From Morinoia aosen (Eukaryota > Arthropoda > Malacostraca > Amphipoda > Talitridae), in contig CM059575.1 of assembly GCA_030386875.1 (NCBI GenBank), forward strand, positions 44,918,859-44,982,858: a stretch of 64,000 nt of DNA, read 5' to 3'. The translations under genes and the position numbers were made by a program. Every line of letters begins with the position of its first letter. Within the stretch, counting starts at the first letter, position 1. Positions 4,437 through 37,600 of this stretch are shown here, piece by piece. The notes under the pieces were generated by a model. The model was not told the origin of the DNA, did not search any database, and saw only the letters and a list, made by a program, of their open reading frames with translations.

Positions 4437-4670
4437 ACTATCCTGCGGCGCTCCCGCAAATCCTGTTAGGTTGTAATCCCCCATGCCCCCGCCTCCCCCG
4501 TCATCCCTAGGGGTGCCAGGACCGTTTGCAGGAGAGCTCTTCATGCCGTCGAGACCGTCACCGTTGAGTACAGGGCCCATGCCGCCACTGCCTGGTCCGC
4601 CCAGACCTCCAGGCCCGCCGCCCATACCTCCGCTGCCGTCACTACCTCCGCCGCCCGACATCGGGAACTC
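4437..4670 (-). CDS. Ssdp: Ssdp last recognised coding exon
   Basis: The acceptor is GCGTCTCAG. It reads [15 protein letters not shown], Gly-rich repeats, then [43 protein letters not shown]. Fly (DGMDGMKNSPANGGPGTPRED, GMGDYNL) and human ([11 protein letters not shown]) match. It ends at AGT before GTGAGTTT, the same donor form used by five other exons here. If unspliced, the frame continues VSLLEQLSG to a TAG at 4407-4409, giving a terminal exon. Which version is normal cannot be decided. The vertebrate-like ending NDNYSPSMTMSV was not found downstream. It holds about 20 CpGs in 234 bp. Confidence 0.93.
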
Positions 4671-7600
4671 CTGAGACGCAACGCGCCACGCACACACACA
4701 AACAAAGTTAATTATTTCCACCCAACTTGGCACTTCTAACCACTAGCTCTGCTGTGCTTCTAACTCTTCCAGACAGGCACAACAAAATGTGCTACTACAG
4801 CATTCCTGTGCCACAGAGCCTACGTTCTAGGACGTTTTTGGTGAAGTCCACAAAGTAGAAACGATATGCTTATCACCTGCTTTGCACCATTAAAGCCCTC
4901 CCACATCCGTATATACCTTTTCCATGCTTTCATGCACCCTACACAAGGGAGTATTATACTCTATCGGTACTGTAAGAATAAAATATTTCTACGGTATGGT
5001 TTCAAATTTGTACAGTATGGATTAGCTGTAGCTTTGATAGATCACTCATACTGCATTCTTTACCAGCTAAACTAGAGTGTGCATTTCATTTTCGCCAGAA
5101 AAACATAATGTCCGCAAATTGTGCACAGCGATGTGGCGACAGGATACTGTACACCAACTTCATGTGTTGGTAACCGCATCTAGAGCTTGCAGCTCACTAA
5201 AATAATACATTGCTTGTTTATTATTCTACTTATTTAAAACTTACCATCATTGAATCAGAAAGAAACGGTTTACTTGTCCCTCCTACACATTACATCAACA
5301 AGATTTCTTATATGTAATCAGTTAAACTATGAAGGATTAACTAAGAAAATAAAGGAATAATTTACAAGAAAATTTGTTCATGACTAGCTCCATTTTGAGT
5401 TTCATAAAATATAGAAAAATATGTAAATGAAATTTATCAATGATTCTAGTAATGTACTCTCACTTCTTACACAAATGCGTTACTTGTTTTAAACTGTGCT
5501 TCATTCATAAATCCTAGAACTAAACTCTCAGATTAACAGCATTTTCAGTACAATGTTTCAAACACTATGCTATTTTCATACACCATTCTTCAGAGCAAAA
5601 AGAACTGCTGGATAATGAGAGATATTCGGGAAATGTACCACAGCAAATTTCTTCCACAATACTACGCTACTAGACCTATAAATTGCTAGCAAACACAACA
5701 TCAAAAAATAAAACTTATTTCATGACATGCAAAAGAACGAAAAATTCCTTTACGGAAAACTCGAGTACAAACTTGCACGCAATCAGCAAACCCTAACGGA
5801 GCCCAACAAAGTCGCCATAAAATACACTCGCTCTTTAAACCAAGATATTCCTATTTTAGCTCATTCAAAATCCAAATTCTTAGGAAAGTGTTTTTAATGT
5901 GAGTCAACTGATGCTAGGGATTAACATAGTGCATTTTCAACTTTTCGGTGTTTGTGAATGCAACAATGAACTATGCACACAGGGCATCCTACAAAAACGA
6001 CCCTCAACTTCCAACACTTTTAACTAAACCCATTCTAACTTTTTAGGTTGGGCATCTATAATTTTAGATGCCCATGCATAATCTCTGCCCAAGGAGGCTA
6101 AAATTATAGATGTCCTAGTGAAAAAGTTTACTGAGAATAACTTGGTTATTTTCCAGATGATAAGCGACATTTTATCCATTAATTTTTACCCATCAGTGGG
6201 AAAATGCATTTCGAATTGCTTCATTAAATCTCTAAATGGCAATGCTCTGAGAAAAGCATTAATGACTGGCTAGCACAAGAAGGGAAATCATTGGAATTGG
6301 AAGCTCACTGATAATGCTAATTGTAAAAAAGTTTCAGTCAATAAGCTTTAATTCATTGCAAAAATAATGTAATATTTTAATCATAAAACATTCGAAACTA
6401 CAAATAACTTATTTTCCATACACGTCATCATTCTTTTCCACACATATCAAGTTAGCCTACATTACCTTAATATTAACTCTATTCATTCAGAGAAATACTA
6501 TTCAGTGCTTTAATGAAAAAGTTTCAAAAGCATTTTCCCACCAACAAAAAAAATCTCAATGAACAGAACGTCAGCAGATGCAACAATACCTAGCAGTTTT
6601 TCTAATAGAAATGTTTAAATCTAGGTTTACATTTTTGTGGCACATCGAGAAAACCATATAAAGCTCAAGAGTCGTCCTTTGAACGCTAATAATTATAAAG
6701 GCTTAGACGTTAACAGGGTAATCACTACAAAGTTATCCTGCATTAGTGATTTCGTTTAGCATTTTGCTTTTCTTAGTTTCGGTAGAACACTAAGGCAATC
6801 CCCTTTCAAGAACCAATAGAAGTGCTGGGAACATTTTAGGTGTTACAACCAACAAGGTGTTACCAAGGAGCTTATCTATGTCACAAAGATCCAAAGAAAT
6901 AAAGATTAAGATTATTATAAGTTAGTTTAAGCCTCCCTAACCACTACAAAAAAAAGCGTATCAAAGAGAGGAAAGAGGAAGGCACCGTTTAGTATGGCGA
7001 GAAGAGAATGGGGAATCTATGCAGAAGAGGCATAGAAACAGTAAGTTGTGAAAGAAGACTATGAAACAAGATAAAAGTTGAAGAAGAAAGTCAGAGGTGC
7101 TGAAAAACAGGACAGTAGTGAACCGAAAAAAGCTGGTCCTTACCATAGCAAAAACTCATTTTATTTCAACAAAAATAAGTCCTACCTAACTCTCAGCTTG
7201 GGTCCTCACATCTTCCCCCTGGAAGCGCTTATTTGCATAGATACTATAGTTGCATCCCCCTGAGGGGTCCAAGGGGAAAAAACATATCAGCTGAAACAAT
7301 TGCAGCGTAAACAACCATAGCAGAAACCAGAATCAGATCCATCTTAGTTGTAAGTATATTAACAAAGATCAAAGCAGCTATGTTTAATTCCATAAAAAGT
7401 GGCTAGGATTAATAAAAACATAGAAAAATTGTAATACAAGGAAGCCCACATGTACGGAACATTATTAGGACCTAGAGAGCAGAAGTTGCTTAGAGTTGTG
7501 AGTAACAAAAAAAAGATGAGGGAGGAGTTCACAACACTCACCCCAGGCATAGGCCCGCCAGGTACAGGCTTCATCAAAGAGAACATCCCGTCTGTCCCAC

Positions 7601-10600
7601 CACTGCCAGTGTCTGCAATGAAGAGGTGCACTCAAAAACTCATGATGATCATTTCAATTCGAATCATTCAAATCAATACACTTAAATTAGTACTAAAATA
7701 TTTTTAATTACTCAGAAAATCTTTGCATATTTGTTATCAGCTAGAAATCAGTTATTGGAGGACGTTGGTACCTGCAAATCATGGAATTTAATATGATGGA
7801 TAAAATAGGGTAAATCCGACCCACAGAATTCAACAATTTTCCCACAGAGCCTATGAATATGAGTAAAATATGAGAAATTCATCATACGAAAAATGCATCT
7901 CCATGCGAGCATAAGCAAAAAAGGGTGAAGACAATTTGTGGAATGTAGTGACAGAGAGGGAAAAATTAATCTGGGGAAACCAAGGCATACACCTCAGCTC
8001 ACATTTCACTTAGTCTACCAAACTTAAAAAAAGCACAAAATAAGCATCAAAACCTAGCACAGTTTACCCTGAACACAAAAGAAAAATAACAAGAAAACTG
8101 TGACATCGACTCAACACTCAACACCAAACTACTAAAGATGGAGTAAACATGTGGCCCTTTAAAGTAGAGAACATTTCGCGAGTGTGTGCGAATACCGTAA
8201 TTTTAAGAACTACTGCTCATTCTCAAGCGACCTAAGGCCTGAGCTCGGTTACCGGACCCAAGGCATACAGTCCAATATTTTGCAACAAAATATTGGACTG
8301 TATGCCTTGGGTCCGGTCACCGAGCTCAGGCCTTAGGTCGCTTGAGAATGAGTGAATAAATTAATTACAGGAATAGTAGAAGTAGATTTCACTAAATCTA
8401 TTTTTCATATAACTAAAACGAACAATGAATTTGCTGAGTTCAACACATACAAGGGATGACAGATGAGAATTCTCCACTTGGATCACTTCTTTGCGTTAAA
8501 TTAAGAATCAGCTTTGCCGCTAAGAGGAGAATCGCGTAAGTGCTAGTTTGGAAAACTATAACATTTGTGACAATTTTCTGAACTTCATATGTTTCATTAA
8601 AATCTCAGTGTTACACAAACAATGCAGATTAAGGTGGTGACATTACAGTTAGAAAGAACACTCATTCAGTATACCTGATGAGAATGGAGAAAGCACGCAC
8701 AATCTGCACAATAAGAAACTGCTGAAGATGTGCAGGCAGCCAAAACAAGTGTTTCTGCACAAGCCGAGGTCAAGCTGCACTAGTTATTTTCCGTTAAAAG
8801 GCATAGCACATCCAGACAATCATCCATTTAAGCACATCCAGACTGACATTCATTCAAAAAAACATGTGGATTCTTCTGATGACTTGTGAGACACTAACAC
8901 TACAGCCATTGATGGAAAACTTTGCAATTGAAACAAAAAGATTAATAAACATTGCATTTGAATTTAAGTGATTTCCACTTTTCAAAGCACTATTTCTTTT
9001 TCTATTTCCCCATTGTATGATGACAATCATCTTCAACTCATAGATAGGTTGCCATTCCATTGCTTGAATAATAAAAAATGTTGAATTTGTAACAAAAATC
9101 ATTTGGGAAATTTCAGGAACACTTGAATATAAAGTATTAATTATTGCATTTTAAATGAGTAATTCCACATACAAGATTTTAACAGAGATTAGAATTAGAG
9201 GTCACCCCATGACAACTTAATTCATGACATTTTATTTGGCCTTACTTTATTGGTAATATCAGTTTCACTTTTGCTCAGTAAATATCCCATGAGAGTCCAG
9301 TTTCAGGATAGAAATTGAATAAAGAAGTACATGCAAAAGCAGAAAAAACATACCATGGAAATATCACATTTTTTCCTGGGTACTGATAACTTTTCACCTT
9401 TAATTCTTTTCCTTGTATTAAGGTTCACTCAAAATATAACCCATACCCTCAATTGTTTAGCTGTTGAATTTACTTAGCATACAAGTGTAGATATTGCATG
9501 AAATTTTCACTTCCTACAAATAGTTACTTAAAATATTCAAATAAATTACCACTATGAAGTAGACTATTGAGACGTCCTTGTGTTATTTGCTTCACTAAGA
9601 GAAAGTGCTTCTATTTATACCTCATTTTCAAGAAAATCTTTGACAGAATGATAAAGCAAGGAAATATTCTTCATGAAGACATCAGACTGAGCGTATCAGT
9701 CACAATTGATGAGACAATTGCAAATTTAAAAAAAAATAGTTCAAACCAAAGTTTCTCAAGGGGGTTCCAGAATAGATCCAAATACAAGTAGAGGCCATAC
9801 AAGCTTCAGATGCCCCATAAAAGTGATTGCAAGAACGAACAGGAAATAGCAAACCAGCAAGATTGGATGAAGCAGGCAAAGGAGCACAAACAAAGACTAT
9901 GTACAGGGAGTAGATGCCTAAGCACTCACTGGCAACACAGCTACGGTAAGCCAAGACTAGTTCAGTAGGAATGGCAATATGTCCTCAGCTGCACCTTAAT
10001 GCATGCTTTTCTCCAATAATGAGAAGCACTAGGCCCATGCAAACAGATATGGAACAAATGGTCTTAGATTTTATAGAATAAAAATGTTGAGAAAACTGTT
10101 GCGCAGTTTCCTTCACTAAATCTAATATTCACATTATGATTCTATCAGAGGCCTCAATTCTTCTTTCAGGAAACATTGCCTTAACAATGATCAAGCATTA
10201 AAGACAATTTTGATATTTATATTGAACCTGCAGTACATCTGACCTACAAATTTCTAAAATATTTTAAACACGTCAAAAGAATGAATGTGGTGCTACTGTT
10301 AGATTGTCGGTTGTCAGTCAGCTACTCCGTGTTTTTTTTTGTCTGTTTTAGGAATTAAACTTGTATCAAAGTCTAATTATTAAGAAATTCTCCAGTGTAA
10401 TGATTTTTTATTTGGATTTCCAGAACACTGAAGATGGATTCATGGAACACCGTAAGTGTTTCCAAGGGAATTTTCACAGGGACACTGATCCTTCTTGCTA
10501 GTTGAATTTGCATTTTCTAGAAATTTACTTACGTCATGCAACACTGAACCAAAACAGTACCAAATGCTTTCTTTGTCTGATACTTTAACTTGAAATAAAA

Positions 10601-13600
10601 TGTAATGCATAATTTATGGAAACCATTTCTCTGCTTCAACCAAGCCAGGTTATTATCCGATCTATTGTAAATGGCATTGTCCAGCACACCTTGAACATAA
10701 CTATAAGTCACCCTCAAAATACTGCAAAGTCTTAAATTTTCATTGATACATCTAACACAAACCGAAATTAAAAAAATGGCTGATTATAAATGCACAAAAG
10801 ATGGTGGCAGAGAGCAAAGTTAGAAGCAGAGCAGGATGTGAGGCACACGTGCAACAGAGCTGCAGCGGCAGCAGGAGCACCACCACCACCTGCCTGAGAC
10901 GGGAGGCATCACAGAGAGCAACACTCACCGTGTGGGCTAGGCATAATGGGAGTTCCTGGACCAGGCGGGCCAGAGCCCGGAGGACCCTGAGCAGGGAAAG
11001 ATGAAACCTTCAATAAAGAAATTGAAAATATATAAATAACCATGTTTGGAACTCGGAGACTTGGCACATAAAAAAAACAGGGTGTTAGTATATATTATAT
11101 AACATTCCATTCATTACATATTTCATCAGGAAATATTTAATTATTCAGGTGAATGAAAAATATTTACTCAACTCTCAAATAATAATCATGAAGCAAGTCT
11201 ACAGATACTCACCATCATATTGCCATAAGTGCCAGGAGAAGAGGACGAATAACTCATGGGCTGAAAATCAGAGAGAGAAAAAAAAATCAGAATACATTAC
11301 TCAACCAGCTACTGGATAATGAAAGTATTGTACAAAGCACACAACATTCTGAAATAAAATTTCCACAAATGAAGTACTCATATCAGGATAGAAGCATTAA
11401 CTGACATGCCTGTTGCAGACTTGAAGCAAGGAAATTACCTCAGGTGCACCAGTTAGTAGGATGACCAAATATTAACAGAAGTGATTTTGATGAGTAATTC
11501 AAAAAAGCATATACCACTGCACATATGAGCAAGAAATGAATCAACCATGGAAGATTAAGGAGATTGAAATTGATTCACCTACAACTTGGCAGCTTGTAAA
11601 TGTAGTCTTAATTAGCTTAGCCTCAGTCACCATAACAAAGGTGTTTCAACGAGAGGAAGGCACTATTTAGTATAAAGTCTTTACACTATTACACTATTTA
11701 GTATAAAGAATATATGAATGAGGCGTATTCACACACAACATCCCTGAGCATAAGAACAGTAAGTTAAAAAAGAAGTTTATGACACAAGATAAAAGTTAAT
11801 GGTGAAAGTGGTATGAGCTGAAAAACAAGGCAGCAATTAATTGAAAATAGATGCTCCATAGCTATCCAAAATCTATCCTTCTTCAACAAAAAGAAAGCCT
11901 TCCAAATCTCCAGCTTGGGACCTCAAATTTTTATCATGCAAGTGCTTAATTCTATAAATAAAAGATAAAATAATTCTGGTTCACTGAAGGGGCAGCTCAA
12001 AAGTATCCTAGGCTTCACCTCCCTACAACTTTGTGGCTGGTACAAGGTTATGCAACAAAGGAGGCACTGTGTATGAGACTTTTTACAAGGAACAGAAATG
12101 CACCCAACGATGGGGCTCCATGGAAGAACATAGCTCTAAATTTGGTACTGAAAACTAAATGAAAGACATTAAACAATTAATAAACTTAACCTAATTACAA
12201 AGATTCTCATGAAGCTCTTTCATCAGGCAAGAAAGAAGAAACAATCGTATGTTTTACTAATGAATGGAGTAAAATAAGAGCTCAGTAAGGGGTCAACACA
12301 GCACAATCCTACAAAACCGACAAAATCTAAAAGTATTTCTCTCATTTGTATGACAAATTTTAATGAAATTTTGCCTCTTGTTGAAAAAGAATGTATTTAC
12401 ACAAATAATACTAACTGAAAACTTAATTACAAATAATGTGGATGACTATGAAGAGATAAAAGTTAATTTCACTACAACTTGGCCACTCACTGAGAGTTAG
12501 TTTAGGCCTCTGTTACCCTAACAAATGTGTTCCAAAGAGAGAAAGGAGGAAGACCCCATTTAGTATGGAGTTACTGGAATGAATAATCTAAGCACATTGC
12601 ACGTTCCCATACAATATCCTCAGGGCATAACAATGGTAAGTTACAAAGAAAGTTAATGAAACAAGATGAAAATTGAAGAAAAAAGGAGTAAGTACTGAGA
12701 AACAGGGACCCTTGTTAGGTAGAGGAGTTTTACTACAAAATCAAGTAATGCTTTTGGGCCACACAATACAAGGCCATAAAGTATAGAAGGGATCAAAAAC
12801 CTTTTTATGATCACATTGGGAGATTCCCACATGCCTTTTTCTTCAATACTTGCTCATAAATCCATTCTATTTGCAAGACAAGTTATTCCTGAGAGACAGA
12901 AAAAGACATCCTCCAGGAGTGCATTGCTGCAAGGGACCACTCACTGTGGATGTGTTGGGAGTCCAAGGTTGTCTGGCACCAGCTCCACTCATGCTCATGG
13001 GAGGTATTCCAGGCCCTGCTGGGCCTCCTGGCCCCATACTGCTTGGAGGAGGCCCTCTCATGCCCGGACCATATGCCCCCGGGCCCATGGGGCCCATCCC
13101 TGGACCTGGACCCATTGCTGGACCCCTCGGTCCTCCCATCCGAGGGTTCATGCCTGAAACATATGAAAAATACTGAATAAAAATTAATTAAAAATACCAC
13201 AATTCTTATTTAAAGCCACATGGAATTAAGGCATCATGAACGTATTGCTACTTAAATGAACATGTTTGGACTATAATTCCTCAGTTGACTGACTATCAGC
13301 ACTAAGCTTTATCATATAACAGAATTTCTTACATTTTTAACACCAGGGTTTCCCAATGATGAATAATAAAATAACTCAAAATGAATCAATTTACTTTTTA
13401 TGAGCAATATTAACCATTGCTCTGAGTTCTGAGATAAAATTTGAGATAATAGTCTTGAAAAATATCATTAATTGTAATGACTTGAATAATCACTACCTCA
13501 ACTAGTACAAAGATGTAAATAAATGCAGAAATACATGCACTCTTAACTACAAAGTTTGATCAAAGGCATAGTTGTTTATGATTAAATAGAGTATCTTGTT

Positions 13601-19600: not shown

Positions 19601-22600
19601 AGATTATTAGTTAGTTTAAGCCTCCCTATCCGCAACAAAGGCAATCCAAAGAGAGGAAGGAAGAAGGCACTATTTAGTATGGAGTTAAGGGAACTTGGAA
19701 TCTCTGCAGAAAGGGCATAGAAACAGTAAGATAAGAAAGAAGTTTGTGAAAGAAGATCAAAGTTGAAGAAGAAAGTAGTAGGTGATGAAAAAACAGGACA
19801 GCAGTGAACCGAAAAAAGATAGGTCTTAACATAACAAAAGCATTTTATTTCAACAAAAAGAAGGCCTACCCAACTCTCAGCTCGGACCCTCACATTGTCC
19901 ACCTGGGAGTGCTAATTCCCATAGATACAATAGTTGTATCCCCCTGAGGGGACCTTTCTATACAATAAAGAGTTAATTACGTATTTACACTACTTGTGAG
20001 GTAAAATAAATATACTGAACAAGAAAATGCACTCAACGTAAGTTATACACAAAAATACTGCCCTTGTATCAATTGAAAAACCTGAGCACAAGGAAACTTG
20101 TACACTGACAGCTAACACAAACAGTAGTTATGGGAGCAACAACACACACAGCAGACACTCCATTAATGATAAACTGTAAGATTACATCTATATAATATGA
20201 AGCAAGAGTAACAATTCCTGAGTCCTAAATCTTTTGTATCCACAACTTTTGAGTTCATTGCATTCTCGCATAACTGCTATAATAGTGTAATAGAATCAAC
20301 CCTACAGTTACAATGACAAACCGTGCCTCATAAGAAAAGGAAACGGAGAACAAAGAATTAGTACAACCTAATATCTAGACACGAGGGACTGATTTCAACA
20401 GAAAATACTATTTTAATATTAAGACAGTTTAAAGTTTCTTGCAGTAGTCTACAGTGAAGCTTTGTACATATAACCTAAAATGCTCAGCTATAAATCAAGG
20501 CTGATACAAAGAAAAAGCATTATCTTAATGAAGCAAGAAAGGCCTAAGGCACAAACATCTGATCAGATGACCTATGTTGTCATACTTTCTTGTTCCCAAA
20601 AAACATTTCATTTTCTAAATTATGAGAGTGATTCAACCAAATGATTGAATTTAGAAAACTGAGTTTCAAACTGCAAGCAGTCCAATAGGCTAATTGAGGA
20701 AAATTGGTAGGAACTATTTATGCACAAACTGAGTTTTGCCAAATAATGTCTCAGCAGTTTACTTTAAACTATAGCTGGTTTATGAAATGAATTTTGTGCC
20801 CAATAACAATTCATTTTAAAAGAGCAAAGAAACTTTACTTGAATATACAATTGGCAACAATACCAACATAAAACCGAGAGATGTCAAACCTTTCATGGAA
20901 AAAATTTAAAAAAATTTCCCATTGAGAAAATGTCATGAAAAAATGTTCACCAGCACAAAACCAGGATTGAACGGTTCAGATCATGGTCAATGTGCAAAAT
21001 GTGAAGCAAAGAGTACTGATCAGACACTAAAGACGCACGGAGTGAAGAAGCACAGTGGCATAACAAAGCAGTGAAAGCTCGAACAACACAAACAATAGCA
21101 CCAAAACAAATAGCAGTATCATCAATGCGTAGTATAGCACCAATACACATAGGTTCAGTTCAGCAGTACCATCAATGCATAGATTACCATCAACAACACA
21201 AACAGCTTTGCAGAAGACAGGAACAAAGCAAAAGCCCCAGCTACTTGAACAGCAACTCCCAGAAAGAAATAATGTATATAGATAAGCTCAACAGCATTTT
21301 GTAGCAACCAGCAACTTGCACTAAATTTTATAGTCACCCAAAACACCACACATTGTCCCCAAGACAACTGGCTGACAAAGAGTTCAGAACCTGCAACATA
21401 ACAACCAAATTTCAGCAGTTTTGTAACACTCAAAACATCTTCCCAGAAGATTGCCCCGTATGATTGAGTGTGCTAGAGGCAACACGGTTTTGCCCCATGA
21501 GTCAATTCGGAGAAAAAGTTACTAATAGCTTCATGAAGCACATAAAAACGAAAGTAATAAGTTCTGCAAACAATGCAAAATATATTAAATGTTTATAGCA
21601 ATTTCCTCCAAAAACAAAAATGAACATTGAGACCATGATGAGGATATAAAATGGGTTCGGGAAAAAAACAGACATTTGTCCAAATTAGGGTGAACTTGAG
21701 AGTGTGAATGAGAACCTACAAATGAGAGCAGCACCACTTCAGGAACCGAGCATCCACGATACATTGACAGAAGCATGAAGCAAAACAAAAAAAGCATAAG
21801 TACAAATAAAAATTAACATTTCATTCAGATAAGTTTTCATTGAAGGGTTTAAGGGCTATGAATGCATTAAAATATTCAAGAATCTACTTGATACAAAATT
21901 TCCAAATAAGAAGAGTAAAGGATAAAAAAAAGTATTTGCAAACAATAGTTACATTCAGGATACCTCAAAACATAAAACAACTTCCTTGGCTAAAGCTCAG
22001 ACATTATTTGCTTCACAGATCAACTGCTGACCAAGTGCAGAGAGGGCTCTAATATGTAACTACTACATACAGCTACATTATGAATAAATTTTGGGTGTCA
22101 ATGACATGGAAATTTAAGGATGCAAAGTAATCAAGTAAATCAAACCAAATTGACTAGCAATTATGCTGGATTCTGGCTAACCAATGCTGATTAGTGGACA
22201 ACGTATTTTAGCAAACAAAGAAGACAATAAGTATGCAATAATGTAAACCTAAAAAAAGACAGAAATGAAGAAACGCAAGAACAATTTAGCAGCAATGAAC
22301 GTAACAAAGGTAAGTTATAGGATATATTTCGGAAATGGAGGAAAAAGGACGAGGGAGGAGCCTACCTTGCCACCCAACAAAGTCACCGTCCCCTGAATGG
22401 TGGGAGGGAGAAAGATAAACCAGCTATTAGAACGAGATAACCAAAAGCACGCACTCTTGTAGATGTATATTTCAAACAGTTCAATTTTGCACTCAAAACA
22501 AGTGTATACTTTAATGGACATTTAACCACCATAATAAATTCAAGCCCATTCACAAAACAAGTGATTCAATAGAAATTGGCCAAGTCATATTTCACAGCCA

Positions 22601-25600
22601 GACCACTCGAAAATCCTATGTAGAAATACCAAAATGAAAATTAAATACCAATCCAAACCTTTACTGCAATATTATACTTGTGCATACAATTCAATAAAAC
22701 AAAATATATTGATGATATACAATACCAGTAAAATTACAAAACTATTAACAGGATTGCATGAAACATGACTTCACAAAAATTGTTGGGATATCTAATGATG
22801 GGGACCAGATTAAAATTGATAGATTACTACCTGACTGAAAACATCGATGAGTAAATAGCATAAGTTGAATGAGTACATCTAGAATGCCTCAAAACTCAGT
22901 TTGTGCATAAATAAACCACCACACAAACTAAAATAGTTTACTAATAAGTGATGTACATGTACAGAAAAATACTGAATGCCCTAATACCCATGAGCATGTC
23001 AATGATGCATCTCAAGTCTTGAAAAATTTCTTAGCTGAGATGAATGAGACTAAATGTAAAATGCAATTAAATAACTCAGTGAAAGTGGCTCAGCTTACTT
23101 AAATGCAGTAAGTAGTTCTTTATGAGACAGCATATTTTTCCTTAGATGAATCACAATTGTGGAAATTAACACCCTCTCACTTTCTCAGATACTATCCATG
23201 ACCAACAAAGATATTTGTAAGTATTGACTCTCTCTCCTAAGAATTTTACGTTTAAAATAATAAATAACTGACAATTTTTTAAAATTGCTACAGGAAAGTA
23301 AGATTAAGTTAGAATAAAATACAGTAATTTACAATAAAATAAAACTGCAATAACTCATAATAAGACTGCAATGGAGCCAAAAATGAGTCAAAACCTTGAA
23401 TCTCCAGCTCATGTATACCATATTTGCACATATTAGCATTTGACAACAGTCCACCCATCATTGCTGGCATGCTGAGTGATGCACCCTAAGTTGTGCAAGC
23501 AGATGTGCAAGAGAACAATACCTCACTCTTCATTCAAGCAATCTCTTTTAAAATTTTCATTAGGCATACCCAAGTTACCACATTTTTGCTGCAACCCAGC
23601 ATTTTAACTTAGGGCTGCATCTCACAGGTTTTCCAGTTACCTCTGGCTTTACTGCATGTAGGAAAAAATGTTAGAAATTTTTTCTCCCATAATATCGAAT
23701 CAAAAGCAAGAATTTGATATAAGTACCACCACTTGTAACCATCATGTTGCCACTTTTCTTTGCCTCACTTTTTATTTCACAGAGTCCAAATAACACTTGA
23801 ATCACAGTTTATTAACTGTTTATTGAACAGTTTATTTTATTTATGTCATGTATATTTATCTCTTTCCAATCACATTCAGGCTTGCAGTTATTTAACATCC
23901 TCCCACTCTCAATTCACATACTCCTCTGAATTGCTATCTGTATTTAGCCTCACTTACCTATCAGTAATTCTCTTCAGCAATTATCCCTTCTTAGAGATAG
24001 TATAAATCCATATTTAAAAATAATTAGAACTTCCTCAGAAGAAGAGGGAGACATATTATTGAAGCAAGAACGAAATATTAATCATTCTGACAAGACTCAG
24101 GACACAAAACTCAACCGCCCTATCAAGTCTTGGAAACAGGTAACCGGTGAACATTCATAGCGGCACTCACAAGAAATTACCTTCACCAGTTGAACTCGTA
24201 AATTTAAGCAGAGGGATAAACAGAAAACTTCATTCAGAAACTATCAGCATTATTATTTTCTAGTTCAGATATTTAAGTAAGAACAAAGTGAATCAATTCT
24301 CATTCAATATCTGTTTCTATCTAAATGTATACTTTTACAAAAACAGAAATGTTGTTGACAAATGGATGTATCGCATTTGGCACTAAGTTATTTTATACCT
24401 TAATTATTGTAGCAACCTCAAGGACTACATACCCCAAAATTTGAAGTTGTCCATAGTTTCTCATGAGCCTGTGCATCAAGGAATGGCAGGCAGCAAGGAG
24501 GCCGTCACTCTGAAAATAGCTATACTTACCTCACACCAAACACCCACACCACTCACCTGGAGGCTGAAAGTAAAAAAAATAATCAGTACGGACATTTTTG
24601 GATAAATAACAATCAATGATAGCCTATTGTACAAAAAATATAACATTAGCCATTTCTTTCTGATAATTTGAGGGTAATATTATTTCATATTGCATATTGA
24701 GGGTAATCATTGCAGTAATTCTAAATGAAATCAAATTCATTAAATAACATGTCTCCAGAAGTTCGGGAAACATTGGCATCTAAACACATAACTAAATAAA
24801 ATAGTTCTCCATAGGCTCTGAGATACTTATAATTTTTAGGAGAGCAAGTGTAATCAAACCTCAGCATACAGTACACGGACATTTTGTATGTTTATGAAAC
24901 GTCATGTTGGGTTGCTTATTCTTCATCTTTGATAGCATTTTCACATCAGATTACCTACCAACTTTGCAGTTATAATGCTGTATATAATAATAGTGTTCAC
25001 TGCCTGTCAAAAATGATGGGATTCAATATTTTCCTTCATTAAATAAGTTTACAAATGTGGATGACAAACAAATATATCCATCTTAATAGTACCCACTATT
25101 AAATATTCTTCTACTTATGCAAGGGTGAAACTGTTATACTAGTATAATATACTTTGACTGTCCAATAAAAATGGTTATTATTATTATTATATAAGAAAGT
25201 TTTAGCCTCCCTTAACCACGACAAAAATGTTCTAAGAGAGGAAAGAGGAAGGCACCATTTAGTATGGAGTTGAGGGAACGCGGACACAATGCACAAGGTC
25301 ACAGAAACAGTAAGCTCGGAAAGAAGTTCATGAAACAAGAAAAAAGTTGAAGAAGAAAGTAGTAGGTGCTGAAAAACAGGACAGCAGTGAACCGAAAAAA
25401 TATGATCCGTAACAAAACAAAACCTATTTTATTACAACAAAAGGAAGCCTACCTAACCTTTAGCTCGGGCCCTTACATGGTTCCCCTGGGAGCGCTAGTT
25501 CCCATAGATACAATAGTTGTATCCCCCTGAGGGGTCCAATAAAAATGGTTTGAAAACCAAACAAGGACTTGAAAAACGTCTGAGGAACTGTCCCCCTGCC

Positions 25601-28600
25601 CTCAGCGATGTCCCTGTCCTCAACCAACAGGTAGTTTGTCATCCACTCACACAATACACAGGCTGAACAGCTAGCGTTTGTGAACTAAAAAACACACATT
25701 GCGCATGTGAGGAAAAACCATGAGATCTGTTGAAGAATGGAAAAAATTTGCTACATTTTTTGGTTCATTAATGAAAGTGAGCGGATGCAAAATATTTTAT
25801 ATCATTTGAATAACATTCAAAATATAAATAAATTGTTGGGAACGTTGCAGATAAAATATTTCCACATATATTTATATATAAATTAAGTAAATTGTTATTG
25901 TGGGGATACTATAAGCATATAATACTGAACCATGATACAATGAACAAAATTTTCAACTTTTACAGGTTAGGTCTACATAATAGGTCTTGTTTTTATTTTA
26001 TACTTGATTGATCACAGACCTAGCTTTTCATAGCTCTCAGCATGGGCCACCAGCTTGCATACTGGACAACCTCACCTTGATAATGACCATCTCACTAATT
26101 GATTTGAAAGCCTTTCATGTTTGAAGACTTCCTGATCATTTAAACCAATTACCTTCTTTTATGATCATTTACAGAATAGTCTTTTTATTTTATTTTTTTT
26201 TTATAAATGTATCTCTCGGGTTTCAAGAATTAAGAATATTTGAATAATTAAAATGGTTCATATATTTGAAATAAATATTTTATACATGCCTAAAGAATAT
26301 ACAAGATGCAATGAGAGGCAAAATACCAAAAAATCCCAGTAAATATTATTCCCAATAAAAATTTTGAACCCACAATCATATTAAAATTACATCATGCAAA
26401 GACAAACATATCTGTTGGAGTCAAATGACCCAACAACTTCCAACAGCATTTTCGGCCATGACAGAAAAATGAGCTACACCTCCTTGATTCTTTTTAGCAT
26501 TCTTATTCAATTGTATTGATTCTTATCTAAATGTATTGATTCTTATCTTCATGCGCATTGATTCTTATCTTTCTTCAAGATTTTGTGTTATCATTCAATT
26601 AAATAGCTCAAACAGGTTCAGTAACAAATTTTAACAATTCAATAATTTTTATCTATTTGAATATTCCTAAGTAACACTTAATTGCTTAGTTCACTTAATT
26701 CTAAATGCTTTTATGTTAAATTCTAATGAGCAAAATTTCAAAAGTTTTGATTTTGTGAAGTACATTTTTTTAACATAAACTTTCCCCTTCAAATTAACAG
26801 CATTTAAGTCTCATCAAATATTTATCAGAGAAATTTCCCTCCTTTCCTCCATAAAAACTTTACCATGTCAATAAAAACAATATTTGCTTTCCTTGTAGAG
26901 GCAGGCTGTAGTTCTATTACACTGTAGCTACTGATAACCCCAACATTTGCTTTCCAGCAATTTATATGAACTACACTTCAATAATCTCACATAAATAGGT
27001 CACCACTGAAGGTGAAGATATGATGAGGTATTAGACCTGATCAGGAAATTTTACTTTTTAAAGGAGCCTCACATATAACATATTTTAAATGAAGCATTAA
27101 TCAAAGGACAGAAACAGGAACTCACTCCATTGAAGTCATTGGGCATCTGTGGCATCCTAACTCCTGGCCTTGGTGCACCAGGATACCTTGGTGTCATGAA
27201 TGGCTGCACACAAAAGTAAAACCAGCATTAAATTAAGCATGCATGTTGAAGCATCCTGTACTCATATGGAATGAAAATTGTGGAAAAATTCCTTATTTGA
27301 TGCAATCTTCTTTAAAAAAAGTGACCCAAAAAGTTGGTCTTGATGATTTAGATAAAAAAATATGGAATGTGTTATATAGTGAAGTACTGGTTGTGTTAAT
27401 AAGACTTCCGGAAGCTGAGATTTATGAGTCTCGGAAGATCTTTATGCGCTCGGCCCGGATACCTTATAGCGTTTGGGTCGCATGTCTTGATAGGGCCTCC
27501 GCCGAAAGAGCCGTTGGGCGCCTTGCATTTACAAGCACCGGATGGGCTTTGTTTACCCTCCGGGCTTGGCTACTCTTAAGGAGAAACTGTGTATCGATAA
27601 GTCAGTAAAAGATTAGGAACTAAGCTGTGCGTTTCGCTATCCTTCTGCCTGGTAGACGGCTAGGCAAACTGAAGCTACAGGTTCTGTTAAATAAACCTCA
27701 TGTTGTGCTGAAACTGCGACACTACAATTGAATGTATTCACCCAGCACATAGAAACAGCATTATTGAAAGAAGTTCATGAAACAAGTTGCAAGTTGAAGA
27801 AAGTCATAATGGCTGAATAAAATGAAGACAGTAAACTAAAAAAATAAGGTCAGTTACAAAACAAAAACTTTATCTAATCCTTAACACAAAGAATACCTGA
27901 CAGCCCTTCAGCACAGGACCTCACATCTTATCTCTGGAAGGAACAGTTATAATCGCTATAATAATTGAATTCTTCCCCCGGCCAAGAAAAAGATAGATCT
28001 CAAGGCAAATGTATAAATTGAAAATTTGGTATTATTTCTAACTTTAAATTATAATTACAATAGATGACTTGCATTGAAGTGACTTTTAAAAGGCTTGAGA
28101 TTAATGCTAATTACTCTTCATTTCTTTACTTTAATACAGTAATAATTTGAATGAAACATGGACGTTTAAGGTTTCCTAACTTGGTTTCCAGACATTTTGT
28201 AAATTTCATAAGTTATTTCATATTGTTAAATTGGTCAATCATTTTTCAACAGGGCACATGACAGCAATGCAGCTTTACTGGGCTCTTAGAGCACAGGTAT
28301 CACCCAAGGTGTAGCACCCTTGCAGGCAGAGACAATAGTGCATGCAGTGAGGAATTCCCAGATTCTTTATTGTTTTCCTTTATAGAGCAAGACATAGAAC
28401 AGAGACTGATAAAAGATATATATACCAGCTGACCATTCCTACCACAAAATGAAATGCGTAGAAGAACTCATTAACAATCAAATCTATGCAGTAACTTTGT
28501 TGGTATAGCTGAATCTTTAGGTGGGACCAATCTCTCACTACAAGGCAGCTTTTAAATTACAGACAAGATAAACATATTTCCTCTCATGAGAGGAAATCCA

Positions 28601-31600
28601 TAAAACTGTCCGCATTACTACCTCTGAGATGTACTAGTTGCCTTTGGTGCATCAAAGAACAACTCCATGAGCTGTACTACCCTCGAGGGACATCAATGAA
28701 CACTAACATCAAAATTTATCTAGGTCCAAAATTTCAATAAAATAAGCCATAAAAGTTCACCATTTATCAAGACTTCACTGCCTGAATCCTTTAGTGAACC
28801 TAGCTCTTTTGCTGGTACATTTTTCAAAGCTTACATGTATGTACTTACTACAGAACATCAAGTTTGAAAAACACAGACTAACAGCAGTTAGACACTGGTC
28901 CAATTAGCAACAACAGAAAATCAATTCATTTCACTCAAGCAAGTAAAACTCACTACACACATGACATAATTTGTAACAATTTAAGAAGTGGTATCAATCA
29001 GAACCTAAAAAATTAAAACTCATTGATACAAGATAATGAAAATAGAAATCATGGAAAAAGCACCTGTCAATTAGATACCTTATTAGCTAGTCCCTGCCAA
29101 TATTTGTTTTCAATTAGGAACTTACCATTAACAGCACCAAAAAGTCTCCAAAAATACACTAGGAAAGAGCATGAAAATTTTTCCAATTAGAAATTTTGAG
29201 CCTGTGCAAATAACTAATCAAGAAAATTTGAAAATGGTTTAATTGGCATTGCATATTAGTTTATTTAATTGGCAGAAATATTTGAAACATCTCTAAACAC
29301 CACTAGTCCAGTAAGTACAAATTTATAAAGCTCCCCATGCACTCACATGGCTCACAGGGCATGCACATTAGGACATGAAACAGCATCATGTTAATGAAAA
29401 AGCAGCAACAATAAAGCCAGGCCAGCACACTGTTTTAGTAAACCATATTCTCCTTTCATGTTAGTGAATTTTGACAAATTTACTGATAGAAAACCTTACA
29501 ATCTAATTTATGTCAGGAATCACACTCATTCTAATACTTATGAACAAAAAAATATATGAATGTACCTAAATATTTCCTGTCAGGTATGCCTTTCTGTGAT
29601 TAGATAAGATATTAGAGTGTGGTATAATCTCCTATATGATAATGGCATCCAAAAATAAATAAATATCGCGGTATATACACAATAACCCAAAAAAGGACAC
29701 CCGAGTACACAGAAGCTGAACTTTTTGTAAGTGTAGGTGCTATCAAAACTTTATTATCTTGATTTTTAATCTTTAATGCTATTTAATCTTATGAAATTTT
29801 GTTCATTTTTTTTTGCAGCTTAGCACAGGTTACACTACTGGAAACTCCACCTAATATCAGAATTTCCTATGGAAAGGATAACACTAGCTAAAAATAAAAA
29901 CTAGCAAAAGAACAGAAATGACAACAGCATAGCTTATTCCAAAGCCAAGTAGAAGCCAGTTAATCATGTGACAGCGCAAGGCACTTCAGCACTTCACTGT
30001 GTACAACTGAACAGAAAAGAAAGCAGGCTAAGGTGAGACCTCTCAATTGCTAAAAAATGAAACATACAACGCAACTAAAAAGCAAGTGTTTGAAGAGGAA
30101 CACGGAATGAGACATGAGGGAGGGAGGACAGATGAAGTTGAAACGCAACTGATGTACGCTGAAACTGAACAGGAAGGTAAGAGGTCTGAAATGAACTAAG
30201 AAAATATATATAAATCTCAGCTGAAATAGATTAAAACAGAGAAAAATGTAAAAAGAGAAGTAAACTACCAGAAATATTCACCATCGTACTTGGCAGAATA
30301 AATATGATGGTCACCATTATGACATCCAAGGATATAATCACTTTTTGATTCAACTGAGTTAAAAATCTATTTCATGTACAATTCAACATACAAAATGAGA
30401 CTTGTATCATAAAAATCAGAAACTGAGAAACTTCTCTAAGTTACATTACTTGACAAGAAGAATGCAAGTATCTAGAAGCCAGCAGCATTATCTAATTAGG
30501 TCCACCCTCAGTAAATATTACAATAAGCTTTTTGAACAATTATGCGTATTGTTCTTTTTCAGCTTGAATTCCAAGCAGAAAATCTGGCCAATGCCCTACA
30601 GTAATATCATGAGGGAAGTAATCATTTCAGGGCAGTAAAAACCAATTGTTATACAATTGCATCAAATTAACAACAAAAATATAAATTTGAAATACTAATA
30701 GATTAGGTTAGATGTTAATTTATGCCTCCTTGACTGCAGCGAAGGTACGTCAAAGAGAGGAAGGAGGAAGGCACCATTTAGTATGGACTAAAGGGAATGC
30801 AAAATCTATGCACAAGGCGCATAGAAACAGTAAGTTGAGAAAGAAGTTCATGAAACAAGGTAAAAGTTGAAGAAGAAAATATTAAACGCTGAAAAACAGG
30901 ACAAAAGTAAATTGAAAAAAGATGATCCTTAATATCACAAAAAATATTAACTACAGCAAAAAGAAGGCCTACCTAACTATCAACTTGGGACCTCACATAT
31001 TTCTCCTGGGAGCACTAATTACCATAGATACAATGGTTGCCCTAACCATTTCTGATTTAAATATTTTATCTTTATACCCAACAGCATAAAAGAATAAAAT
31101 TGCAATAAAACCACAGCATTTAACCCTAAAAATTTAAACTACACCAAGCGCAACTAAGGAAGAGGTGGGGCAGTCTGCAAATAGTATTGACCTGGGCTGA
31201 TGATCCGGGGAGCGATGATAAGATAATGATGGTGGTCCAAAACTTACCTGAGAGTTGACGAGGGGACTGTGAGCCCCAGGTGGAGGATGGGGAGATGCCT
31301 GAGAAGGGAGGGGGGGACCAGGGGAGGGACGCATACCAGGGGTCTGGAATGAGGGGTGAGTGGGCTTGCAAGGAGATGGGTCACTAATACACTACTAACT
31401 GTACCATCAACTCTTGTGTGGCAGGACAGCCAAGAACTTGTTGTGTGGTGTATTGGACGAATGAGTAACAAATGAGGAAAAGAATACAGTACTTCTAAAA
31501 AATTAAATGTTGCAAATCATTTTAATTAAATATGGAATCAATGACACTTCACCTCAAGGCCTCTTGAAAAATTAGAAATATTGTAGTTAAAATAATGAAG

Positions 31601-34600
31601 AGCTCCGATTAGAAGAAAATTTACTCTGGTGCAAATATGACTTGAGTTAATTCATCAGAGAATAGTGACAACAGTGTTCAACTTGTTATGGTTAGTGTAG
31701 AGCCCCAAACCATGTTAGTCTGACCAAGCCACAGCACAAAAGCCATTACATTAATCAATTTCCTCATCAAGAAGCATTAAGCTCATCTGCTAGCATTATC
31801 AAGCAAAATACTGCAGCACAATTTGTTAAATAAGCATCAAGAATCACCACAAACTTCAACATATAATAATGAAAATACATAATTAAAAATAAACCTAGTA
31901 CAACAGAGTTACATAGAAGTTATATATTGCCATAAATAAAAATCCCTAAAACCAAAAAACTGTATAAATGATCACACCTATTCAATAAAGAAAAGAATAA
32001 AGCTACATGAATTGATACATAACAATGTATCTTAATATGGGAATGATAAAACAATGAATAATTATAATCTATCTATCTATCTATCTATCTAATAAAAAAA
32101 ATTTAAAACCAAATCCAAAACAAATGTGCTTCATATATTTGAATACCACTTATTCATAGAAATGGTAAAAGCAATAGTTTCATAAAACCCTGAAGAAATT
32201 TATGAAATAAAAATAAGAGGTATTTATATGGATGAAATTATATTCCATAAACAGAATTTTAGAAAAATTTTTATTCTTCATGTGCAGCAAAATGGTAAAG
32301 CCAGACACATTGAAAAATAATCTGATATTACAAATAAAGTAACCATAATTCACTATTTATTTTAGATGAAATTGAATTTTGAAAAATATGAAAGCATGCA
32401 GCATACAGATTAGGTAGATGTTAGCTTAAGCCTCCCTAACCAAAACAAGTGTGTTCCAAAGAGACAAAGGAGGTAAGCACCATGTAGTTTGGACTCAAGA
32501 GAATGCAGAATTAGTGTACAAGGTGTATAGAAAGTTGAGAAAGAAGTTTGTGAAGCTAGATAAAGGTTGAAGAAGAAAGTAATAGGTGCTGAAAGACAGC
32601 AGCAAACTGAAAAAAAGGTTTGTAACAAACAAAAAATTATTCTACATCAATAAAAGAAAGGCCTACCTAACCTTTAGACCAGGACCTCACATATTCTCCC
32701 TGACAGTGCTTATTCCCATAGATACATGCAAGAAAAAACTTCCCATAATAGCACAATCAAACAATCATGCATATGAAATAAGAACAGAAAAGGTCTATGA
32801 ACTACACCTAAAAAGGTACAGCCATTGATGGATAAGAGTTACAGAAAGTCACTACCCTATAATTATAATTAACAAACATACAAAGCTATACTTATTCATC
32901 TATTTGAAGATAATGCTGGACACACAAGGATACCAGTAAAGCTATGAATTGAAGAATGAAGTAATAGCTCGAAATATCAAAGATACAACAGATTCAGCAG
33001 GTTGATTGTCACCAAACAAGGGAAAAATTATAAGAAAAATATATATAGGGAAATAATGATAAGGCCTACCAACATGCTAAATGAAACTCATATCATCTTT
33101 GGCAAGAACACTAATTCTTCCTGAAAGAGCCAAGTTCACTAAAGAGCACTAATTTTCAAAAACAACATCAAGAGGTCAAGCACCATCACTGTACTTGAAC
33201 ATTTAAAACTAAGAAACTCCACATTTCCTGATGAAATGCTGAACCCAAAAATTATTCTAGAATGTACTCTCCTTTTCAGCACAACCACATAAATGAAGCG
33301 GCTAGTACTTATAGAAATATAATGAAATGGGAAATAAGATTATATTTTAGTTTAAGAATCCCTAGCAGCAACAAAGGCATTCCAAGGAGAGGAAGGTACC
33401 ATCTAGTATGGAGTTAAGGGAATGCAGAATCTATGCACATGGTGCACAGAAACAGAAAGTTGAAAAAGAAGTTCATGAAACAAGATGAAAGTTGAAGAAG
33501 AAGAAAGTAGTAGATGCTAAAATATAGAACAGCAGTGAACTAAAAAGTAATGGTCCATAACAAAACAAAAAATCTATTCTATTTCAACAAGAGGAAGGCC
33601 TACCAAGCCATTAGCTCGTGACCTCCCATGTTCTATATACTAATTCCCCTTGCTAATTCTCCTTGATACAATAATTTTAACCCTTTAAGGGGCCATGGAA
33701 AATAAAATACAGGGAAAAATTTCAATGCAATTATATGAAAAATACCTATTTATACTTCAATTAATAACAATAAAGTCCGAACTTTAAAAAAAAATGAAAC
33801 AGAATGGGCAACTTTTTTCATAATTTTATAATGGAATCATAATTATATCATGCATAGAGTATAAAGTAGGACAATAGCAAAAGTGTTGGGACAGAAAATT
33901 TACTGCAGCAATGTTAGAAAGAATTTGTGAACGAACTTCTACAAATTAAAAAAAAAAGCCAGAAGCAAGTTGCAAAATAAAACAGCAGCACACAACCAGG
34001 AATGAAACAATTGGCAACAAAGTCATGAAGCCCCACAATAATATCCTAGACTAACTAGGCAAGGTAAGATAGAGGCATCAATAACTACAACACAGGAACT
34101 CGACAAGATTTTGCTTAAAGTCATACAGCAGATGAGAGAGTGAAAAGCTGAAGTCATTCTCAAAAATCTTACCCCATTTCAAGAAGGAGCAAATGCTTCA
34201 AGTAAAGCATTTGAAAGTAACTAGTTGCATGCACACAAAGTACACCACTGAGACAGTAGCGCTGCACATGTACAGAAGAGCTTATCCATCCAATACTCAA
34301 TGTATACAGAATGAGAAGTTGAAGCTCAAAATAAATATAGAATTTTTACTTACAGGGAAGAAACCTGGAGGCATAGGCCCTCCTGGACCCATGCCATCAT
34401 TTGGGGCCATTTGGCCAAGTGGTGATGGTGCTGGGCCAGCATTCTGGAACAAAAATATAGACATTCAGCACCAAAATCTTGTAATGAAAAAATTAGACAC
34501 TGCACACCACTTATTGTACATGACTAAAAATGGATAAATAGAACTGTCAATAAACTATAAAAGAACTCTCCGGCATGGGTAATTAGGTAATTACTGTTCT

Positions 34601-37600
34601 AAGCAAGGAAAAGATTTAGATTCAATTCCAAGATGAACAGCCTACTAAGATTATTAGAAGAGCATTTGTTAATAGTGCAACCATACATACTGAATGGGAA
34701 ATGACAGAGCAGATCCAAGTACAACTCCAGAATTGCTTATTGATCAAACTATGCAACATACAAGGTTTTCCAGCAGATTAGATAAAGTAAGTTAGTTTAA
34801 GCTTCCCTAGCTACAACAAAGGTGTTTCAAAGAAAGGAAGAAGGAAAGTACTATCTGGTATAGAGTTTAGGGAACTCGACATACGAGAAGTGTACTCGCA
34901 CAAGACCCCCTCCCCTGCACATAGAAATAATACGTTGTGAATGAAGCTTATGGAACAAAATAAAAGTTAAGAAGAAAGTAGTCATTAACAAAAAGAAGGA
35001 CAAAATTGAACCAAGAAAAGGTGGTCCATAACAAAACAACAACCTATTCTATTTCAACAGAAGAAAAGCTTACCCAAGCTTTTGCTTTTGACCACACATT
35101 TTTCCCTCAGAAGTGCTAATTCCCATTTCCCATTCTTTTTCACACAATATCGTATCCCCCTGAGGTAGTTCTGAAAACAAGTTTTGTGTATGTTAGCAAG
35201 CAATAAAGCCAGGAGAAGAGACACCCATATGCCTACACACACAATTCCACTGCCAACAAAAGCAAGGCTTTAATATGTTTGCCCAATATGTCAACTATAT
35301 ATTGCAATATATGTGTTCCAGTAGGTAAATTTCCCATTAACATATCTGTGTAAATGAAAAAGCATTTCAATTATTTCAACTTTAGCATTAAAAGCAGTTT
35401 TCTTAAATGTTCTTCTTTGAACCTCACTTAAAATGATCGTAGCAACTCCACTAAGGCAGTCAACATGTTAACTACAGCAGTATAGCTTATTAATGATAGT
35501 AGTGCCAAGTGCTATACTAAAAATATTACTTTCAAGTACTATTATTACTATTGCTATTATTATCACAATTATTGTTACATAAGTACAAGTCTCTCTAGCC
35601 ACAACAAGACTATAGAGTAAAGATAACGAACAATTTTGCATGGACTGTAGGGAACAGGTAATCTATGCACAAAGTGTATTTCCCACAAAGCATATCATGC
35701 AAACAGAAACAGTGAGTTAGGATGTAAGAGAAAGAAAATATACAGAAGTAATAGCAAAAAGAGAATGAAAACTGAAGGAAGCAAAGTGGGCATGATAGAT
35801 AGCAGTCCCAAATATCTGTCTATAGATGAGATAACCCAACAATAACTTTAGAACACCTTAAAATTTTTTTCATATCTTTATTTGGAGGAATGCTATAATG
35901 AATCCCCAAAAAGTAGAATAGACAAATAAAACGTAAAGATAATGATCATCCTGAATAGAGCAGATCAGATTAAATTATTAGTTTAAGCCTCCCTAACCAC
36001 AACAAAAATGTTTCCACGAGAGGAAAAGGTGAGGCAACATTTAGCATGGAATCATGAGAACGGCAAATCTATGTATACATAGATTTGCCGTTCTCACCCC
36101 ACGACACAAGGCAACAGCTAGCTTGAAAGATGTTTATGGTTTGATTAGATAAGCTAGTTTAAGCCTTTCTAGGCTCAATAAAGTGTTACAAGAAGACCAA
36201 GAAAGAAAAGCCAACTAGCATTTAGTAAAGAAAGAGGGAACCTATGCCCAAGGAGTGTTCCCATGCTAGAGCTCCTATGCATTTAACAACAAGTTACAAA
36301 GTGAGGTTATGAAACAGGATAAAAGATAACAAAAAAGCAGAAGCTGATTACCAGGATAGCAGAGAACTGGAAAAAGATGATCCATTGCAAACGAAACAAA
36401 TACTTTTCTATTTCAACAAAAAGTATACTTGACCTTCACCTCGTATCACATATTCCTATTGGCAGCACTAATTTTCATTGATACACAGTTGTCTCCCCTT
36501 GAGGGGAAAGAAGTTTATGAAACAAGATAAAAGTTGAAGAAGAAAGTAATAGATGCTGAAAAAAGAACCAAAAAGGAGTCCATAAAAAACTACTTATTAG
36601 AAAAAAGTGAGACCCATTAAAACTTCAGTTTCTGATTAGATTAGTCATTAGTTTTAGCCTCCCTACCCGCAGCAAGAAATGCGATCCAAAGAGAGGAAGG
36701 AGGAAGGCACCATTTAGTAAGGAGTTAAGGAAATGCGAAACCTACGCAGAAAAGGCATAGAAACAGTAAGTTGTGAAAGAAGATTATGAAACATGACCAA
36801 AGTTGAAGAAGAAAGTAGTAGGTGCTGAAAAACAGGACATCAGTGAACCGAAAATAGGTGGTCCTTATCATAATAAAAACATTTTATTTCAACAAAAAGA
36901 AAGCCTACCTAACTCTCAGCTCAGGCCCTCACATTGTCCCCCTGGGAGCGCTAATCCGCATAGATACAATAATTGTATCCCCCTGAGGGGACTTCAGTTT
37001 CTGACCGGACATGTTTACATGTACCTAGTATGGGTGTTAATTTTTCCTCTATACAGTGTTTATTTTACCTTGAAAAGACCACTGAACCACAAAAGAAATC
37101 GAGAGCTCAGCGCTGTGTATAACTAAGTTTCACTCTGCCAAAGGTAATTAAAAAAGAAATTGGTAGGTTTAATTATTGGTTAAACGTATGAAGGAAGGGT
37201 TTCGTAACTCAGAAGTACAATGTATCAAATGAACAACTCAAGAATAGCAGTGACATGGCACCAAACTTCCAACACGTTCACGAGCGCGTTTTACCAGACA
37301 TACAACTGGCTAAAATTCCCAGCTTTTATTTAAATGGCTCAAGTTCAGACACTTGTCTAACATACTTCAATGGCTCAATAAAACTAGTCTGAAAAACGAA
37401 CTAAGAACTGAAAAAAACGTCTGAGAAACGGTCATTCGCTGAAATTTTATTAAGTCACTCATTTATAATGAGCATAACCGGATCGAGTAGAAGTGAACCC
37501 CTCGCAGAGGGAAGAAAGCATCCTCGAGTAGAGTAAAATATTAGAAGTAATTAATTTGGTGGGAGTAAAGAGGCAGCTTACGAACGTTCCCAAACAGCAG

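Follow-up and report, generated by a model that had tools for sequence, protein, structure and literature searches.

A CpG-depleted block with a sharp edge in mid-intron within the Ssdp gene of the amphipod Morinoia aosen, a probable footprint of germline methylation

The stretch of DNA analysed here, called the window, is 64 kb long and comes from the amphipod Morinoia aosen (contig C20, GenBank CM059575.1, C20:44918859-44982858) in an assembly of 1.99 Gb and 29 contigs. It carries part of a minus-strand gene of about 116 kb, mostly beyond the window, which by its encoded domains is Ssdp (SSBP2/3 family), and inside this gene lies a long block of DNA in which CpG is rare. To describe this block, we computed CpG, TpG, and CpA per kilobase in the window and then repeated the profile over 214 kb, that is, the window with 60 kb to its left and 90 kb to its right. 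All positions are window coordinates unless a contig is named.

The exon map was made by tblastn with a human SSBP3 sequence, and some exons may be missed. A search of the whole genome with the profile PF04503 gave three matches, all within the Ssdp gene. The N-terminal LUFS region and the C-terminal SSDP domain were found in this one gene, where the N-terminal exons rest on the SSBP3 query. Coding exons 1-3 lie outside the window at 120.4, 90.4, and 69.5 kb, followed by exon 4 at 55.1 kb, exon 5 at 34.4 kb, and later exons at 27.2, 13.1, 11.0, and 4.7 kb. The 5′ introns are long (14-30 kb), and exon 5 carries an in-frame methionine that is a possible start of a short isoform. The parts of the gene within the window are as follows, with the ratio of observed to expected CpG given as o/e.

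55011-55094, minus strand: Ssdp exon 4, the end of the LUFS domain (SSBP2 chains 8hib and 6tyd, Ssdp chain 6s9r; tblastn); 5 CpG, o/e 1.15
34444-55010, minus strand: intron 4, 20.6 kb, containing the sharp edge described below (exon map)
34357-34443, minus strand: Ssdp exon 5 (tblastn; PF04503 14-46; translation, preceding AG); 0 CpG
27087-27209, minus strand: Ssdp exon 6 in its Pfam limits, the true exon probably being shorter (PF04503 74-114; tblastn 27206-27141); 0 CpG
12945-13153, minus strand: Gly/Pro-rich Ssdp exon (PF04503 126-186); 4 CpG, o/e 0.19
10933-10986, minus strand: Ssdp exon (tblastn with human SSBP3); 2 CpG in 54 bp
7545-7625, minus strand, approximate limits: probable penultimate Ssdp exon (translation read by eye, no database match of its own); 2 CpG
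4437-4670, minus strand: last Ssdp exon found (PF04503 239-291 at 26.5 bits, cut-off 27; tblastn); 20 CpG, o/e 0.84

A first-pass annotation of this DNA had described CpG as rare from about 6 to 37 kb and common beyond, and this is what the counts give: 249 CpG at 6000-37100 against 944 expected (o/e 0.26), and 955 at 37101-64000 against 971 expected (o/e 0.98). The four local counts that it quoted are exact (2 in 22561-23160, 22 in 42001-42600, 4 in the 209-bp exon, and 20 in the 234-bp exon). Mononucleotide shuffles of 6000-37100, 200 in all, contained 945 CpG on average (standard deviation 24, minimum 877), and among 240 overlapping windows of 31.1 kb placed elsewhere in the 214 kb the lowest o/e was 0.73 and the median 0.92. 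At finer scale, 2-kb bins at 6-36 kb had an o/e of 0.10-0.43, compared with mostly 0.7-1.1 outside the domain over the 214 kb, and the o/e was below 0.6 in 95% of 62 windows of 500 bp inside as against 8% of 53 such windows at 37.1-64 kb. The G+C content is 0.349 inside the domain and 0.380-0.405 outside. A two-state hidden Markov model (HMM) run over the 214 kb returned a single long depleted block, at 4691-36646, along with short ones at 69865-70937, at 112969-116783, at 125374-128134, and from 148534 to the end of the 214-kb stretch. The domain and its borders, none of which has a strand, are placed as follows.

4691-36668: CpG-depleted domain, o/e 0.27, deepest at about 9-36 kb (HMM, change points, counts)
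36535-37100, best 36668: sharp border of the domain on its 5′ side, within Ssdp intron 4 (change-point likelihood)
5140-8614, best 8541: diffuse 3′ edge of the domain (change-point likelihood and 250-bp profile)
37250-38700: CpG-normal to CpG-rich DNA adjoining the sharp edge, a candidate internal promoter site (genome DNA search)

The two borders differ in kind. The right border, which is 5′ with respect to the gene, is a step with its best change point at 36668, a 2-log-unit support interval of 36535-37100, and a log ratio of 162, and so the sharp edge proposed near 37.1 kb stands. The left, 3′ border is a ramp: a 250-bp profile across it is gradual rather than stepped, the best change point is 8541 with support from 5140 to 8614, and the HMM places it at 4691, so that the start near 6 kb is not a sharp edge. 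The right edge falls mid-intron, in intron 4, with exon 5 following 2.2 kb downstream and coding exon 1 about 84 kb upstream; our exon map gives this intron a length of 20.6 kb rather than the 16.3 kb given earlier. Directly outside it, at 37.5-38.5 kb, CG/(CG+TG+CA) is 0.30. The domain thus lies within one gene, as had been claimed, and spans exon 5 through the penultimate exon found, about 27% of Ssdp, namely its 3′ part minus the last exon. The CpG profile within it is uneven, and some of its bumps coincide with young repeat copies. The roughly 84 kb of Ssdp upstream of the edge, with exons 1-4, is mostly CpG-normal. CpG is normal for 2 kb around exons 2 and 4, while beside exon 3 it is low on the side of a transposon-like patch. 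The last exon is also CpG-normal, with the depletion fading over several kilobases ahead of it. The earlier remark that 5′ regions are typically spared therefore holds but was an understatement, as most of a long transcribed 5′ region is spared here and the 3′ last exon is spared too.

Among the 16 dinucleotides, CpG shows the largest change across the domain, from an o/e of 0.93 outside to 0.26 inside (z -21.7). The excess of TpG and CpA that the earlier reading called for is present, with TpG o/e 1.23 inside versus 1.07 outside and CpA o/e 1.24 versus 1.07, and these gains are symmetric between the strands (CpA +0.17, TpG +0.16). An excess of A over T is broad across Ssdp and is present on both sides of the right edge. 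Coding sequence behaves in the same manner as the introns. The ratio of CpG to TG/CA is 8:100 in the five exons of the domain; against these, exons 1-4 have 14:41 (p 0.003) and the last exon has 20:27 (p 7e-7).

Two sets of related sequences that occur on both sides of the edge serve as internal controls. The first is a 145-bp paralogous pair.

25591-25735, plus strand: inside copy of the 145-bp pair, 3 CpG
37660-37807, plus strand: outside copy of the 145-bp pair, 13 CpG

A genome DNA search with 37250-38700 gave two matches, itself and the inside copy of this pair, and no third copy. The 13 CpGs of the outside copy read inside as 6 TG, 3 CA, 3 CG, and 1 GG, and the 3 CpGs of the inside copy are all CpG outside, so the change goes in one direction (9:0, p 0.004). 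The edge as the border of a young insertion was considered and rejected, the adjoining outside DNA being single-copy apart from these 145 bp.

The second control is a dispersed repeat of about 312 bp with 5 CpG sites in its consensus, for which pieces shorter than 80 bp were left out, as were cells that read neither CG nor TG/CA (15 inside, 26 outside, and 4 in the patch in intron 1 described below). At these sites the ratio of CG to TG/CA is 18:32 in the 17 copies inside and 79:38 in the 35 outside (p 2.8e-4). An earlier 8-site Fisher test (p 1.4e-5) had included 3 sites that are not CpG in the consensus, and we rely on the 5-site test. Among copies with at least 12% divergence the contrast is 6:26 inside versus 29:24 outside (p 0.0014), and an artefact of age is disfavoured by such copies of like age. 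Young copies inside the domain look, from their sequence, as if they have not yet decayed, which would account for some of the CpG bumps inside it. One CpG of the repeat, read at the first 100 genome places listed (13 Mb of one contig), was CG in 88, CA in 9, and TG in 3, and thus most near-intact copies in that list are undecayed.

From these comparisons, we conclude that position, not sequence origin, decides CpG loss. The loss is mainly CpG-specific and strand-symmetric, it hits introns, exons, and inserted repeats, it is weaker in younger insertions, and it falls within one transcription unit in which the region of exons 1-4 and the last exon are mostly spared. About three quarters of the CpG in the last quarter of Ssdp has been lost to TpG and CpA.

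Methylated cytosine deaminates to thymine, so that a CpG becomes TpG, read as CpA from the opposite strand, and a methylated stretch therefore loses CpG over evolutionary time, whatever sequence lands there. On this basis, the domain is very probably the trace left by mutation where part of the Ssdp gene body has long carried CpG methylation in the germline, and this strong confidence applies to the methylation footprint, not to the cause of its edge. The cause of the loss would be 5-methylcytosine present in the germline, laid down and maintained by DNMT3 and DNMT1 and probably guided by a mark of transcription elongation such as H3K36me3. Enzymes of this kind are encoded in the genome. DNMT1 exons lie on C22, a UHRF1-type SRA domain is encoded on C21, and two copies of DNMT3 lie on C4 at 99.41 and 101.35 Mb, separated by about 1.9 Mb, with match scores that are nearly equal and ADD-type matches upstream of each; the pair is either a recent duplication or an assembly duplicate. 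A frame on C13 appears DNMT2-like, the name DNMT2 being our own reading. The earlier proposal of germline deamination accordingly fits the dinucleotide, exon, pair, and repeat tests. Its insect setting is not established, as a profile search of the genome for the odorant-receptor family PF02949, run without a positive control, gave 0 matches with 7 candidates scored. A CCTAA/TTAGG telomere-type repeat at one contig start suggests an arthropod.

Several observations weigh against a methylation footprint, or at least are not explained by it. Smaller shifts in AA, AG, TC, CC, and GG (|z| 3.8-6.2) do not follow from CpG decay alone, and the 63 bp of exon 3 contain no CpG (0:11) although this exon lies outside the domain. 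In the repeat, copies with less than 12% divergence do not differ significantly (12:6 inside, 50:14 outside, p 0.36), the inside copies are older on average (non-CpG divergence 15.8% versus 12.7%), and the oldest inside class (4:8) is not more decayed than the middle class (2:18). The DNMT1 gene, the only other gene read (20 kb), has a CpG o/e of 0.51-1.03. CpG depletion is likewise absent from two contig starts and from eight short loci in other places, and thus such domains are not found everywhere in the genome.

Why the edge lies in mid-intron is a separate matter. Our slight preference, held tentatively, is for an internal promoter, active in the germline, at about 37-39 kb, methylation then setting in a short way downstream, and the step shape, the place in mid-intron, and the CpG-rich single-copy DNA outside favour this. 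The alternative, which we also consider possible and rank only slightly behind, is that the same footprint has its edge where an elongation mark (H3K36me3, with DNMT3 activity) builds up late, becoming dense only toward the 3′ end of the gene, where exons are more frequent, and that there is no second promoter. The long 5′ introns and the exon-rich 3′ part held by the domain suit late build-up, as does the rise of H3K36me3 toward the 3′ end of genes in a beetle, where it mirrors methylation (PMC12576374). Late build-up is harder to reconcile with a step completed within about 0.6 kb, in mid-intron and 2.2 kb before exon 5 rather than at an exon, with outside DNA that is CpG-rich and not intermediate directly at the edge, and with the sharp depleted patch that is also found in intron 1. 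A motif search gave the promoter no backing. A scan of 36.9-41 kb for core promoter motifs, which has almost no power, found 6 initiator (Inr) motifs, of which 0 came with a downstream promoter element (DPE) or TATA, and 17 control windows averaged 0.12 and 0.06 motif pairs. A wholly methylated gene diluted by young insertions is disfavoured, since DNA near exons 2 and 4 is CpG-normal and old repeat copies lie outside the domain.

A promoter at the edge raises a further possibility, which we regard as rather unlikely as it stands, that a germline transcript begins in intron 4, joins exon 5, and could start translation at the in-frame methionine, giving a short Ssdp without LUFS. LUFS is the domain that serves Ssdp in self-assembly and in binding LDB1/Chip. 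If such a transcript exists, the CpG scar would be a fossil record of an Ssdp isoform transcribed in the germline.

The footprint itself could belong to a different transcript, nested in or antisense to Ssdp at about 5-37 kb, with the Ssdp body unmethylated. The domain is indeed compact and coincides with just a part of Ssdp, and a nested non-coding transcript would be invisible to the sequence methods used, but none of the stop-to-stop frames in the window reaches 150 aa, the selected frames compared with Pfam revealed no second gene, and the ends of the domain agree with exon 5 and the last exon of Ssdp, so we consider this improbable. Most doubtful of all is an origin with no methylation, from base composition, strand-biased deamination in transcription, or DNA age (with young insertions outside): G+C is lower inside and the A over T skew is broad across the gene, yet CpG deviates far more than other dinucleotides with TpG and CpA rising equally, the skew continues on both sides of the edge, one 145-bp sequence differs across it in one direction only, and the DNA outside the edge is single-copy while outside repeat copies of at least 12% divergence retain CpG.

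Outside the domain, other depleted patches were found in the 214 kb. Intron 1 of Ssdp holds the second sharp one, 3.8 kb long at 112969-116783 and as deep as the main domain, in which no exon or transposon gene was recognised and in which two repeat copies have CG:TG/CA of 0:6. The patches at 69.9-70.9, 125.4-128.1, and 148.5-154 kb we ascribe, by eye and without a control, to their own transposon- or virus-like content. Four frames from the transposon- and virus-like patches compared with Pfam gave one weak match (RVT_2, E 0.036) and otherwise none. At 125165-128139, CpG-poor DNA that is bounded by copies of about 700 bp in inverted orientation and has frames that are transposase-like by eye is a probable DNA transposon. 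The DNA at 148400-154000 is AT-rich and CpG-poor and has long open frames (98-441 aa) in succession on the minus strand, two of which are without a convincing Pfam match; it resembles an element of the Maverick/adintovirus type. Inflation of the short depleted patches by TG/CA simple repeats was rejected, as those patches have TGTGTG/CACACA counts of 0 or 1. Neither Rfam nor tRNA scans found anything in the 64-kb window.

The dispersed repeat is also ordered in its orientation. All 65 of its 65 blastn pieces at -17730 to 116122 (for example, 57845-58487) have the same orientation, antisense to Ssdp in the direction in which the unit was written here, and none was found by blastn in the outer parts at -60 to -18 kb and 116-154 kb; the same interval, -17730 to 116122, shows the A over T skew. 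In the genome, the core of the repeat occurs 9581 times forward and 9378 times in reverse. At the first 100 places listed on C1, orientation matches in 51 of 59 pairs of neighbours spaced by less than 50 kb and in 20 of 40 pairs spaced more widely, and the overall agreement of 71/99 compares with a mean of 49.5 and a maximum of 70 in 20000 shuffles. Three copies in DNMT1, also a minus-strand gene, are oriented as in Ssdp. Orientation seems to be linked with genes, either through selection or through the mode of insertion.

Elsewhere in the assembly, C27 has 14 matches to bacterial-type cytosine methylases at 57-71 Mb. Open frames of the RNA polymerase beta-prime family number six on C27 (1222-1433 aa) and one on C26 at 21.18 Mb (1408 aa). 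These bacterial-type sequences probably stem from several bacteria whose DNA ended up in the assembly.

From a single genome, the decay of CpG can thus tell at sub-kilobase resolution where germline methylation starts and stops in one gene; here repeats and a paralogous pair served as the internal controls. If late starts in mid-intron are common in long genes, they would reveal either hidden germline promoters or the build-up of elongation marks along the transcript.

With the mosaic gene-body methylation of invertebrates (Ciona, crayfish, and many arthropods), the Ssdp domain shares its restriction to part of a transcription unit, the sparing of gene ends, and the change of CpG to TpG and CpA. 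In Ciona, the methylated domain is central over the gene and both ends are depleted of methylation, and when a transgene brought a promoter into a methylated intron, the promoter and about 1 kb beyond it remained free of methylation (PMC3827831); compared with this unmethylated 5′ part of about 1 kb, the Ssdp block starts in mid-intron, within intron 4, with coding exon 1 lying some 84 kb upstream. The marbled crayfish methylates exons, introns, and genic repeats, with a preference for long, CpG-poor, conserved genes (PMC6172769), and the inclusion of introns and genic repeats is shared. Most arthropods tested have higher methylation in exons than in introns (PMC7343188), and the honeybee has a bias to the 5′ end (as cited in PMC8857917). 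Honeybee-type insects share with Ssdp a signal confined to the gene on an unmethylated background, but in place of their exon or 5′ bias the introns of Ssdp are as depleted as its exons and it is the 3′ part that is hit. In cnidarians, introns and the transposons in them are methylated and the level declines in the 3′ direction (PMC8857917), which differs from Ssdp. The Colorado potato beetle, whose H3K36me3 profile was cited above, shares the stronger signal toward the 3′ part of the gene, but that species has lost DNMT3, of which the present genome has two copies, and its profile is an average over genes rather than a step in one gene with the last exon spared. In titles and abstracts on alternative starts and gene-body methylation, no late start of this kind was found. 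As with vertebrate CpG islands, CpG-normal DNA adjoins CpG-depleted DNA at a sharp edge; in contrast to them, it is the CpG-normal state that makes up the local background in most of the 214 kb and the depleted block that stands out. The footprint is therefore ordinary in mechanism and of a kind already known, and what is unusual is the place in the gene at which it starts.

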